From: Desulfosediminicola ganghwensis
Lineage (GTDB): Bacteria; Desulfobacterota; Desulfobulbia; Desulfobulbales; Desulfocapsaceae
DNA: 64,000 nucleotides
Direction: 5' to 3'
Assembly (NCBI RefSeq): GCF_005116675.2
Contig: NZ_CP050699.1
Location: 558,001-622,000 of the forward strand
Part shown: in pieces, positions 2,870-6,961 of the stretch
Layout: every line of letters starts with the position of its first letter
How positions within the stretch are numbered: the first letter of the stretch is position 1
The notes under the pieces: generated by a model
Seen by the model: only the letters and a program-made list of their open reading frames with translations
The model's database searches: none
Told to the model about the DNA's origin: nothing
Translations under genes and position numbers: made by a program

Positions 2870-3093
2870 TTTCCCCCGCCTTTATTCTGTTTTTAATGGT
2901 TTATGCTTCCTGTGATTTCAGCAATCCCTTACAATTAATTGCACTCACGAACCAGATCCTGCTTGTTTGCCACCCCGGCCGTTGTTAATTTTTGGAATAC
3001 TTTATTATTTGATACTCTCACAACTGATAACCATGATGGCCCGCAATGTTGCCAGAACCAGGTACAACATCAGAACCTGATTAAGGAGAATGT

Positions 3094-4407
3094 ATGTTCC
3101 GGTCATTTCTACTTGCAGTGAGTTTAAGCATGGGCTGGATGCTTTCACCGGATGTCCAGGTACGACTCGGCAACGGCATGGGCCTCAATCGCTCACTTTT
3201 TCTTGCCGCACTCGCCGCTTCGACACTTCTTTCCGCGCTTGTAGTTTCGATTATCAGACACCCTAAGCTCGCTGTCGAAGGAAGGCATACCCAGACAGGC
3301 CTGCTCGTGCAGGGGCTCGGCAAAGTACCTGCTGCCTCACTCATTCTCTGCGCAAGAATAAGTTGTGTTCTTGTTCTCCCCACCGGGCTGCTCGTTGCCG
3401 CCGGCTTTGCCTTCAATGAAATCTTTGTCTACTGGTTCCCGAATTTTGGTTTTGCCTTTTTGCTGCTGGCCCTGATCGTCGCCCTGCAGGTGAGCGGCGA
3501 AAGATTCGCCGGCTATGCTCAGGTGTTTTTTGCTATCGTCATGTTGGGTTCAATGATTCTGCTCTGCCTGGCAGGAATCAGCGGACCTGTCAGCACCAAC
3601 CCTGTTTCTGTCGATATTGGTTTCTCACTTTCCCTGCCGACAATGGTAGGGAGCCTGCTGCTGTTCCTCGGTTATGACTTTGTGCTCCCCCGCAATACAA
3701 TGGCTGACCAAAACAAGGAACTGCTCCCGGCCATGATTCCGGCTACAGGAGCCCTGTTTGGCGCTCTACTGCTCTTTCTCTTCTGGTCCATGTTGATGTT
3801 TCAATATGTAGCCTCAGACCATCTTGCAAACACGACAATTCCCCACCTGATTACCGCCCGGGCAATATGGGGAGATACCGGGCGCTATCTTATTGGTATC
3901 GCCATCATCAGCGGTGTATGCGCTGCAGTAAATGCACTTTTCAGCATGGCATTGAAAAGTTTTTCAGGTCTTGCCAGACGCCACCTGCTTCCCGGCCACC
4001 CACCCGGCAGGCTGAAGAGAAAACGTTTCGTATTCCTCTTTGCACTCATCATCGGTACGATGATGTTGGGTGGCCTTGCCGGATACCAGATCCTTGAAGC
4101 ATATATTCAGACAGCTCTGCTGCTTTGGCTGGCCATGGTTGGAGCAGAGTGCATAGCGGCAGGAATAATGCTGAAAAGGCTCAACAACTACAGATACCGG
4201 CAAGGGTATATTCTCGGTGCGATTTTAATCCTGGCCGCAATGTACCTTATGCTTTCCTACCAATACGCTTTCACTTCCATTCGGGTAACCCTCGTGGCCT
4301 TTATTGTCACTGCAGGTGCTTCCGCTCTCTGGAACATTATAAAACCTGTGGCTGAGGTCACCCCCCCACAAAAAGACAAATCTAACACGACAGGAGGTTC
4401 TCAATGA
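3094..4407 (+). CDS. Amino-acid permease-like transporter (APC superfamily)
   Basis: This 437-residue protein is hydrophobic throughout with about 11-12 predicted membrane helices and short charged loops. The overall pattern resembles APC-superfamily amino-acid permeases, but no substrate-specific motif is recognised. The start at 3094 follows AAGGAGAA. Its stop overlaps the start of the next gene in an ATGA junction, so it is almost certainly co-translated with the secreted rhodanese downstream. That pairing suggests transport of a sulfur- or selenium-containing amino acid or related compound, which is inference only. Confidence 0.65.
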   Translation: MFRSFLLAVSLSMGWMLSPDVQVRLGNGMGLNRSLFLAALAASTLLSALVVSIIRHPKLAVEGRHTQTGLLVQGLGKVPAASLILCARISCVLVLPTGLLVAAGFAFNEIFVYWFPNFGFAFLLLALIVALQVSGERFAGYAQVFFAIVMLGSMILLCLAGISGPVSTNPVSVDIGFSLSLPTMVGSLLLFLGYDFVLPRNTMADQNKELLPAMIPATGALFGALLLFLFWSMLMFQYVASDHLANTTIPHLITARAIWGDTGRYLIGIAIISGVCAAVNALFSMALKSFSGLARRHLLPGHPPGRLKRKRFVFLFALIIGTMMLGGLAGYQILEAYIQTALLLWLAMVGAECIAAGIMLKRLNNYRYRQGYILGAILILAAMYLMLSYQYAFTSIRVTLVAFIVTAGASALWNIIKPVAEVTPPQKDKSNTTGGSQ

Positions 4408-4805
4408 AACGTCTGACAACACTTCTCTTTGCCGCACTGGCGGCCATACTGCTGGCCCTCACCCCGGCTGTAGGTGGAGAGGTCAAGTTTATGGAAATTG
4501 ACGAACTCAAGCAAATGATCGGCTCCGATGACGTAGTCGTTCTCGATGTTCGGGCCGGCAGGGACTGGAGCACCAGTGAATTTAAGATTCAGGGCGCCAT
4601 GCGAGCCGACGGTGCCGATTTTGACAGCTGGGCCAACACCTACCCTAAAGAGAAAAAGCTTGTTCTCTACTGTGCTTGACCCAATGAGGCCACAAGTGCC
4701 AGTTTGGCACAAAAACTGATAGATAACGGTTATACAGAAGTCTATGCCTTAAAGGGCGGATGGAAAAGCTGGTACCGCAGCCAATACCCGGTTGAACCGA
4801 GATAA
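4404..4805 (+). CDS. Secreted rhodanese-domain protein, candidate selenoprotein (in-frame UGA)
   Basis: This is read as one 133-residue gene with UGA at 4677-4679 decoded as selenocysteine (residue 92). Before the UGA are a signal peptide (residues 1-25) and the first half of a rhodanese domain with VVLDVRAGRDW. After it the same frame continues with PNEATSASLAQKLIDNG, then YALKGGW, the typical C-terminal half of a rhodanese domain, and ends at TAA 4803-4805. The UGA falls in the active-site loop (YCA-U-PNEATS), aligned with the catalytic Cys of the CPNEATSA subtype. A hairpin with a G in its loop lies 16 nt downstream. An AGGAGG site precedes the start, which overlaps the permease stop. A plain nonsense mutation is the alternative. 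Confidence 0.82.
4677..4710 (+). promoter_or_regulatory. Candidate bacterial SECIS element
   Basis: The UGA codon at 4677-4679 is followed by a perfect 6-bp stem (GTGCCA 4696-4701, TGGCAC 4705-4710) with loop GTT. The loop begins 22 nt after the UGA, within the distance range for bacterial SelB-binding hairpins, and contains the usual G. The stem is short and the structure was judged by eye. Confidence 0.6.
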
Positions 4806-4824
4806 CTTGAATCCCACCACCCCA

Positions 4825-4873
4825 GGCAGCCGATGCCCGAACTGATGAAAACTTCAAGTGAGTATCGGCTGCC
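4825..4873. terminator. Inverted repeat between convergent genes
   Basis: Ten-base perfect arms (GGCAGCCGAT at 4825-4834 and its complement at 4864-4873) lie between the rhodanese and the convergent transporter gene. The loop is 29 nt and there is no clear T-run, so a bidirectional terminator is likely but not certain. Confidence 0.5.
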
Positions 4874-4898
4874 TGAACCGATGAGAGCCTGCTGCTCG

Positions 4899-6260
4899 TC
4901 AGGTAAAAGCATAATAGCGCAGATAAACATATATCATCGCGATAAAGACGGTCACAATGGTTACAGGAACACCATAGGCCATAAAACGTAGAAAGCTGAT
5001 CTTCTGACCAGCTCTTCCCGCCATCTCCACAATTATCACATTAGCGGATGCACCTATCGGTGAGCCGTTACCGCCCAGACAGGAACCAAGTGCAAGAGAC
5101 CACCAGATCGGCATAAGTTCCGGATGCTGCAGCAGCGCTATTCCGCTTTCCTCAGGCCAGAGTTCTCCTGCCATATCAATCACCAAAGGATTCATGGTCG
5201 CCACATAGGGAATATTATCTATCACTGCCGACGCTATCGCCGAAAACCACATGATCAGCATGGAGGTCGAGAGCAGATCTCCCCTGGTAAGGTCAAGCAT
5301 CTCCGTAGACATCATCTTGATCGCGCCGACTTTCACCAGCCCACCCACCATAATAAACAGGCCGATAAAAAAGAATATCACTTGCCACTCAACTTCTGCA
5401 AGCACCCTTTGTGGTTCTGAAGTACCAGAAAGCAAGAGGAGAACTCCCGCACCAAACAGGGCCACAGTGGCAGGTTCGTAATGAAATACGCCATGCAGCA
5501 TAAATCCCAACAGCACAAACCCCAACACACAGAGTGACTTCTTCAGCATCAGCGGATCCTTGATGGCATCTGCCTCATTCAGATTCATTATGCGTTGCTT
5601 CAATTCCTCCCTGGTTTTCAAACTGTTGGCAAACACAAGCCTGATGATGAACAGGAAACAGACCATGATCACGATGATAATCGGGGCAAGGTGAATGATA
5701 AAATCCATAAAGTTCAACTTAGCCCTCGAAGCAATCATTATGTTAGGCGGATCGCCGATAAGAGTGGCAGTGCCACCAATGTTTGAAGAAAGGGCTTCCA
5801 CAATCAGGAAAGGGATCGCATCCACCTCCAGGGCATCTGCAATCAACAAGGTAACCGGGGCCAGCAACAGGACTGTAGTGACATTGTCGAGCAGGGCGGA
5901 AAAAGCCGCAGTAATAACTGCAAAAATAATCATGATCCTGAGCGGATCTCCCCTGCCCAGTTTTGCACTTCGGATGGCAATGTACTCAAACATTCCTGTG
6001 GGACGCATCAGACTGATGATAATCATCATCCCCACCAGCAGGAAAATCACATTCCAGTCAACACCAAACTCCTCCAGATGAAATGCCTCATGTTGATCGA
6101 GGATTTTTAGAACCAGAATCAGCGCAGCGCCAAATATGGCTACGACAGTTTTATGGATTTTTTCAGAAATTATGACCACCAGAGCAACCGTGAAGACAAT
6201 TATGGCAACCCAAAACGACGCGTCCATCGCAAAGGCTTCCTGTACCGCTCCACTTTCCAT
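4899..6260 (-). CDS. ArsB/NhaD-type ion transporter
   Basis: This is a 453-residue membrane protein with about 11-12 helices in two homologous halves. Motifs typical of the ArsB/NhaD/P-permease superfamily are visible: SALLDNVTTVLLLAPVT in the first half and SAVIDNIPYVATMNPLV in the second, both D-N-hairpin motifs. There are also the glycine-rich re-entrant stretches SSNIGGTATLIGDPPN and SCLGGNGSPIGASANV. Members export arsenite or exchange Na+/H+ or anions; the substrate here is undetermined. The start at 6260 follows AAGGAG. The gene starts two bases after the CBS-domain gene, so the two form an operon in which the CBS protein may sense or gate the carrier. Confidence 0.85.
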   Translation of the reverse strand: MESGAVQEAFAMDASFWVAIIVFTVALVVIISEKIHKTVVAIFGAALILVLKILDQHEAFHLEEFGVDWNVIFLLVGMMIIISLMRPTGMFEYIAIRSAKLGRGDPLRIMIIFAVITAAFSALLDNVTTVLLLAPVTLLIADALEVDAIPFLIVEALSSNIGGTATLIGDPPNIMIASRAKLNFMDFIIHLAPIIIVIMVCFLFIIRLVFANSLKTREELKQRIMNLNEADAIKDPLMLKKSLCVLGFVLLGFMLHGVFHYEPATVALFGAGVLLLLSGTSEPQRVLAEVEWQVIFFFIGLFIMVGGLVKVGAIKMMSTEMLDLTRGDLLSTSMLIMWFSAIASAVIDNIPYVATMNPLVIDMAGELWPEESGIALLQHPELMPIWWSLALGSCLGGNGSPIGASANVIIVEMAGRAGQKISFLRFMAYGVPVTIVTVFIAMIYVYLRYYAFT

Positions 6261-6262
6261 GG

Positions 6263-6733
6263 CTACTCCTTGGCCGAGGACATTAAATCTGAAATTTTCT
6301 CATACAGATCATGAATATAGAGTATGCCGACAACTCTCCCTAAATCATCTACCACCGGGATACGCTGCAGAGAATTGTCGATCATGAGATCCGCACAGCG
6401 GATAAGTGAATCATCCACTTTGACGGTTATCACATTCCGCGACATGATATCCTTCACCTTCACATTTTTCACGCGCTTGACATGGTCCTCGAACATCCCT
6501 TCCCAGGTGAATTCCCGAAGGATGTCCTCCATATATGAAGGGATTATTGCTCGTATGATATCCTTTATGGACAGCACACCAACAAGCTTTGTGCCATTCT
6601 CAAGTACGACCATTCCCTGCACGGTTCTCCCTTTGTGGCTTGCCCTGGAAAGGCGAACCACCGCTTCCTGAAGGGTCATCTCCGGTTCCAGCCAATTATC
6701 CTTGATAGGCTCGACCAGTTTTCGTACATACAT
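6263..6733 (-). CDS. Paired CBS-domain protein
   Basis: This 156-residue protein consists of two CBS motifs: residues of about 10-70 (GVLSIKDIIRAI) and 95-150 (VKDIMSRNVITVKVDDSLIRCADLMIDNSLQRIPVVDD). Such Bateman modules bind adenine nucleotides and signal energy state. The start at 6733 is preferred because GGAGGTG lies six bases upstream; a longer in-frame start at 6763 lacks one. It lies immediately upstream of the ArsB/NhaD-type transporter and is probably translated with it. Confidence 0.85.
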   Translation of the reverse strand: MYVRKLVEPIKDNWLEPEMTLQEAVVRLSRASHKGRTVQGMVVLENGTKLVGVLSIKDIIRAIIPSYMEDILREFTWEGMFEDHVKRVKNVKVKDIMSRNVITVKVDDSLIRCADLMIDNSLQRIPVVDDLGRVVGILYIHDLYEKISDLMSSAKE

Positions 6734-6961
6734 TTTTTCACCTCCGGAAGTACATCTCAGCATCTTTCATTCTATCGAAAAAATGCATTTTCCTGATAAA
6801 ATCCACTCTTCAAGGGTAGGTGAATTACCCTGAAAACTCAAACGCATTTCTACGCTATTTCACCAATAAGAAGCGTGTACCACCTGACGAGAGATGCAGG
6901 CTGCGCCACAATAACACCACCCGCCAGTTGCCTTTGAACTCAAGCATAATATTAAAAAAAA

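Follow-up and report, generated by a model that had tools for sequence, protein, structure and literature searches.

Selenocysteine in rhodanese-like proteins

Rhodaneses that carry selenocysteine (Sec) have been predicted from genome sequences before. In the part of PMC13188914 available, the table of selenoproteins lists rhodanese-like forms 1 and 2, with the motifs UxxS and UxxG, and a "rhodanese-like form 3", with the motif CxU; the last is the same as the "COG0607 form 2", also CxU, in the available part of PMC9312934, and both reviews credit the CxU rhodanese to the SECIS-search paper of Zhang and Gladyshev (2005). The CxU family is thus already predicted and catalogued, and it is not new. 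The literature passages available contain no experimental work on this family, and neither UxU rhodaneses nor a pairing with a permease appears in the passages available from the open-licence literature (PMC13188914, PMC9312934, PMC1088965, PMC2398784, PMC1794560, PMC8318568).

The gene described here lies in a window of 64,000 nt, the whole stretch of Desulfosediminicola ganghwensis DNA that was analysed. Its product scores 185.1 bits against the NCBIfam family NF041203 (rhodanese_LYCAU, "rhodanese-related (seleno)protein"), 70 bits over the curated cut-off of 115, and it is very probably a Sec-containing member of this LYCAU, or CxU, family. Given this match and the listing in the two reviews, the gene adds a member to a known predicted family: it shares with NF041203 and with the CxU rhodanese of the reviews the CxU motif and a single Sec, and nothing essential differs. 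What it contributes to the knowledge of the family is a permease partner, evidence on the role of Cys90, and relatives that have either a UxU motif or have lost Sec.

Other described rhodaneses are more distant. Forms 1 and 2 also combine a rhodanese domain with Sec, whereas in the CxU motif of the window protein a Cys precedes the Sec by two residues, a comparison made from the motifs in the table. Fusions of a VTT domain with a rhodanese, mostly from Burkholderiales according to their record titles, have the motif CxC within the same YCACPNE loop and Cys at the Sec column in 80/80 loci, but the 80 are those retained from 134 relatives by a pattern that contained YCACPNEA, so that the motif was selected for. 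The fusions differ from the window protein in being joined to a membrane domain (VTT plus Rhodanese domains in the three full frames scanned, out of three) and in having Cys instead of Sec; the contig scan that yielded them used the protein read with Cys, and it served solely for them and for locus L113, described below. Finally, GlpE and other single-domain rhodaneses have the fold in common with the window protein, whereas the GlpE type is devoid of Sec, and its alignment to the window protein requires a two-residue gap in the loop.

The rhodanese gene and its product

The features of the locus are collected in Table 1. The frame runs from the ATG at 4404 to the TAA at 4803-4805 with a sole interruption, the in-frame TGA; with TGA translated as U, the region reads ...LVLYCAUPNEATSASLAQKL..., in which YCAU corresponds to residues 89-92. 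The Pfam Rhodanese profile PF00581 crosses the TGA, covering residues 32-125 with 53.8 bits against a cut-off of 22.2, and the AlphaFold model, computed from the window protein with C replacing U and from 39 relatives, has a rhodanese fold with a mean pLDDT of 91.2 (Foldseek, VIA-align); superposition on GlpE gave Z 16.0 and rmsd 2.2 over 106 aligned residues. A preliminary description of this DNA had reported a frame that stays open across the TGA and a rhodanese domain completed beyond it; the coordinates, the length of the product and the hairpin sequence that it gave are those found here, and profile and predicted fold agree on the domain.

Table 1. Features of the rhodanese locus (window coordinates) and the UxU relatives
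Feature	Position	Strand	Remarks
Divergent APC-superfamily transporter (permease) gene, 437 aa	3094..4407	+	overlaps rhodanese start; profile relation to AdiC
Shine-Dalgarno-like AGGAGGT	4392..4398	+	by eye; ahead of rhodanese start, within 3' end of permease gene
ATGA overlap, permease stop / rhodanese start	4404..4407	+	sequence
Rhodanese selenoprotein gene	4404..4805	+	133 aa + TAA; NCBIfam NF041203; read-through translation
Signal-peptide-like N-terminus, about residues 1-24	4404..4475	+	by eye: basic start, hydrophobic run; relatives
Cys90 codon TGT	4671..4673	+	putative canonical rhodanese nucleophile (probable)
UGA = Sec92, second residue of CxU motif	4677..4679	+	U in 104/126 copies
bSECIS hairpin GTGCCA-GTT-TGGCAC	4696..4710	+	apical loop 22 nt past UGA; conserved stem
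UxU copies	L110, L201, L205, L207, L208, L211, L223-L229		rhodanese motif

The product appears to be a small single-domain protein, probably periplasmic; indeed, since a signal peptide is recognisable by eye, the Sec would act in the periplasm. A scan of positions 2870-4950 for promoters and terminators gave results near chance (3 vs 1.8; 1 vs 2.0). Downstream, on the minus strand, lie a convergent gene for a CitMHS/ArsB-type transporter (4899-6260) and a CBS-domain gene (6263-6763); among 101 short loci the CitMHS/ArsB-type transporter matched in the window's own locus alone, and no link to the rhodanese was seen.

Decoding of the UGA codon

The published model of the bacterial SECIS element (bSECIS; PMC13188914) allows a loop of 3-9 nt and a stem of 4-16 bp, with a G as the first or second base of the loop, a distance of 16-37 nt from the UGA and an MFE <= -7.5. 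The hairpin behind the TGA stays within all these limits, having a 6-bp stem, a GUU loop, a distance of 22 nt and an energy of -8.7 (centroid) to -9.2 (MFE) kcal/mol. Its single-sequence folding energy is ordinary (z -0.76, with 45 of 200 shuffles folding at least as well), and folding energy alone, not being significant, was rejected as proof of a SECIS.

Homologues were collected at two levels. Among the genomes of the order, 66/242 gave matches at E <= 1e-10, in 82 places, 76 of which were read; in the phylum, a divergent UxU query found 74/395 genomes at E <= 1e-12, in 106 places, of which the 50 that were read had partly been picked for two TGA codons or for none. The resulting 126 copies include damaged-looking ones, which were kept in the counts: L240 and L241 contain a TAA, and in L075 and L076 the N-terminal part of the Sec copy is missing. 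The Sec92 column has TGA in 104 copies (65 order-level, the window's own included, and 39 phylum-level), Cys in 14, Ser in 6 and Ala in 2. All five stem pairs are kept, at the same distance, in 103/104 Sec copies versus 1/22 non-Sec copies, and the apical-loop G is found in every Sec copy (104/104). The covariation score of the stem was matched in none of 500 shuffles, a control that ignores relatedness, and three pairs are altered on both sides. The stem is maintained through the choice of codons: its Ala codon is GCC in 61 of the 65 order-level Sec copies, and 64 of the 65 encode its Ser by AGT or AGC.

Past the TGA, the mean numbers of differences at codon positions 1, 2 and 3 are 9.4, 7.7 and 20.7 in 42 pairs, and dN/dS has a median of 0.17 in the 21 of these pairs in which it is definable; the pairs are those stop-free and >= 60% identical, from the 64 Sec copies besides the window's own, 22 of which were filtered out. 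By these sequence comparisons, the stretch beyond the UGA is under purifying selection. Within simple length limits the window holds 59 read-through candidates, and a SECIS-like hairpin of >= 5 pairs follows in four, the rhodanese included; the other three were judged by eye to be noise, and nothing else in the 64,000 nt was convincing, again by eye, as a further Sec gene.

Selenocysteine machinery of the genome

The genome encodes SelB, over its cut-off, the tRNA-Sec (SelC), over its gathering score, and two SelD proteins, both over cut-off. Each of the two SelD genes (L009 and L010) has one TGA within its frame; in the translated stretches it falls on residue 17 or 18, a site which we take to be the SelD active site.

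SelA gave no match in the genome search, and the sequence searched has a gap between a conserved gene and a 5S rRNA. SelA is over cut-off in 45/60 family genomes (this one being among the 60), including two of three same-genus relatives, often near contig starts; in the three relatives examined, selA has rRNA genes on one side, separated from it by a sequence gap in one relative, and a conserved gene on the other. In the present genome, that conserved gene and the 5S rRNA border the unsearched gap. The missing SelA was rejected as a refutation of the Sec reading because the place that selA occupies in the three relatives is the unsearched gap here, and the simplest explanation of its absence is that gap. 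The same situation was found for G245 and G049 among the four genomes checked, but not for G041 (locus L031), which is listed as 100% complete and has a TGA rhodanese, yet gave no match to SelA, with weak matches alone for the neighbour gene.

The UGA is almost certainly read as selenocysteine. If it were instead a true stop, whether in a pseudogene, through a sequencing error or at the end of a functional 91-residue product, the failure to see SelA directly in the genome would be accounted for, but the same codon is TGA in 65 copies of the order and 39 of the phylum, with a conserved hairpin and selection on what lies beyond it, and this explanation is highly improbable. Even less credible is a genome-wide reassignment of UGA to another amino acid: nothing beyond the open frame speaks for it, whereas tRNA-Sec and SelB are present, the hairpin is tied to the TGA, and Cys is the commonest residue in the copies that have another codon (14/22). 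The preliminary description had called the gene a probable selenoprotein with a hairpin at a spacing suitable for a SECIS, a view that conservation and covariation of the hairpin, the presence of SelB, SelC and SelD and the NCBIfam family now bear out; it had also proposed an alignment of homologues, which gave the Sec, Cys, Ser and Ala counts reported above, and folding of the hairpin, which turned out favourable for the bSECIS limits and unexceptional against shuffles. Regarding the sel genes, it had named the absence of selB or selC as evidence to the contrary, and both were found, as was selD; selA, also on its list, gave no match, its expected place being unsearched.

Variants of the motif

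In 13 copies from 12 genomes the codon of residue 90 is also TGA, and the motif is UxU; the two TGA codons are six bases apart and a single conserved hairpin stands behind them; counted from the first base of each codon, it starts 25 bases past the first UGA and 19 past the second. All 12 phylum-level rows with two TGA are UxU, and the thirteenth copy is from an order-level genome (G034); as the query was itself UxU and two-TGA rows were chosen, the sample is enriched and the 13 copies give no frequency. In a tree built by a quick method on 125 columns and 125 rows (the short Sec fragments L075 and L076 left out, L113 added), 57 of the 122 inner branches are open, and the minimum imposed by the starred branches alone was used; these force at least 4 changes for the UxU state, so that several gains or losses of it are probable. 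DUF547 genes, instead of a permease gene, stand directly beside the UxU rhodaneses at L205:1911-2636, L208:680-1405 and L211:1876-2613, according to a scan of three proteins picked by eye, and they may point to a second functional association of these rhodaneses.

Other copies are without Sec. At six loci of one genus (L075, L076, L077, L078, L079 and L081), CxU and CxC copies occur side by side, and the CxC ones are without a fully paired hairpin. The Ser codon is TCA in five of the six CxS copies; since this codon is one base off TGA, they look like Sec losses in which C90 was kept. One of the TCA copies, L232, is the single non-Sec copy with all five stem pairs, and in a Desulfatitalea MAG (L113:181-564, outside the 126) the Sec codon is TGT with the hairpin intact, as expected after a change from Sec to Cys; both are probable fossils of Sec use. 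In L111 the motif is YGSUPDES: Gly occupies the canonical Cys position and Sec is retained; inspection by eye shows no signal peptide in this copy.

The overlapping permease gene

A homologue of the permease accompanies the rhodanese in 42/101 loci, the window's own included. By motif, these are 42/88 CxU loci, 0/6 UxU, 0/11 CxC and 0/1 GxU; the remaining 46/88 CxU loci are without a permease in locus DNA that is short and, in some cases, cut at contig ends. In 20 of the 34 permease-rhodanese pairs that were measured, again with the window's own, the genes overlap by four bases (-4). The rhodanese gene had earlier been described as coupled to an amino-acid permease, and the ATGA overlap and the recurrent pairing make this association stronger than had been claimed.

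The window permease itself gave no Pfam or NCBIfam match. A profile of 24 homologues matches AdiC structures at 5e-7, AA_permease_2 is detected in 2/24 members, and the family is strongly conserved around G104-F120, near the motif GFxFNExFxYWFPNFGF; from its profile relations, the family is a divergent branch of the APC superfamily.

Active-site residues and proposed mechanism

According to the preliminary description, the UGA replaces the catalytic Cys of rhodaneses; this is probably wrong. Across the 126 copies, position 90 is C in 112, U in 13 and G in 1, so that it is C or U in 125/126, whereas 8/126 have Ser or Ala at position 92. In rhodaneses the catalytic Cys sits right after a strand, and in the AlphaFold model C90 directly follows strand 85-89. 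We consider it probable that C90 is the rhodanese nucleophile and that Sec92, two positions on, is a second, resolving residue.

Alignments divide on this point. Of five phmmer domain alignments, those to 6mxv domain 2, 2hhg and 6pfz match C90 with the canonical Cys (3/5), and those to 6mxv domain 1 and GlpE match U92 with it (2/5); one more, whose partner is a dynein-associated chain, was left out of the five. In profile alignments, whose columns were read by eye, 1yt8 gives both answers, U92 matching the Cys of its domain 2 and C90 that of its domain 4; U92 is also placed on the Cys in each of the two 6mxv domains, and C90 on the Cys of the last domain in the EanB chains. Sequence alignment was thus rejected as proof of the catalytic residue, since phmmer and profile alignments split.

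A nucleophilic Sec92 that replaces the catalytic Cys, with Cys90 as an accessory, would agree with the phmmer alignments to GlpE and 6mxv domain 1, with the profile alignments to both 6mxv domains and with L111, in which Gly is found at 90 and U92 is kept; the near invariance of position 90 compared with 92, the three phmmer alignments that favour C90 and the place of C90 immediately after the strand count against it, and we regard it as rather unlikely. The chemistry itself could also be other than sulfur transfer, the protein being a thiol-disulfide or peroxide oxidoreductase built on the rhodanese fold. CxU resembles redox motifs. Moreover, the available part of PMC9312934 holds that a redox role is probable for most selenoproteins that are still uncharacterised; however, C90 stands alone in the CxS and CxA relatives, an arrangement better suited to sulfur transfer than to disulfide exchange, and an oxidoreductase is a rather unlikely reading.

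SelB, bound to the hairpin, very probably brings the Sec-tRNA to the UGA. With Cys90 as the probable nucleophile and Sec92 as the resolving residue, a mechanism may tentatively be outlined, which in this form is less likely than not. In the exported protein, Cys90, at the end of a central strand, would accept from a small substrate in the periplasm either a sulfane sulfur or a thiol bound in a disulfide; Sec92, in the same loop, would attack the persulfide or mixed disulfide, freeing the product as sulfide or free thiol; an internal S-Se bond would remain, which a reductant would reopen. The APC-type permease would then import the released amino-acid-like molecule or its precursor, the putative substrate and the possible link to transport being suggested by the gene order.

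Implications

With the series CxU, UxU, CxC, CxS and CxA, one can ask what advantage selenium brings at each of two neighbouring positions of one enzyme, and the UxU relatives raise the question whether one SECIS can serve two UGAs. The recurrent pair of permease and selenoprotein is, in turn, a functional lead. Taken to its furthest extent, the locus would represent a two-chalcogen rhodanese active site, CxU here and UxU in relatives, whose CxU form passes sulfur, or an amino acid that carries a thiol, to a dedicated new branch of APC-type permeases; it is unlikely that all of this holds together. If it did, one bSECIS would decode two UGAs, in a state that has changed several times, and the CxU form would be a selenium-dependent periplasmic uptake module in the phylum.
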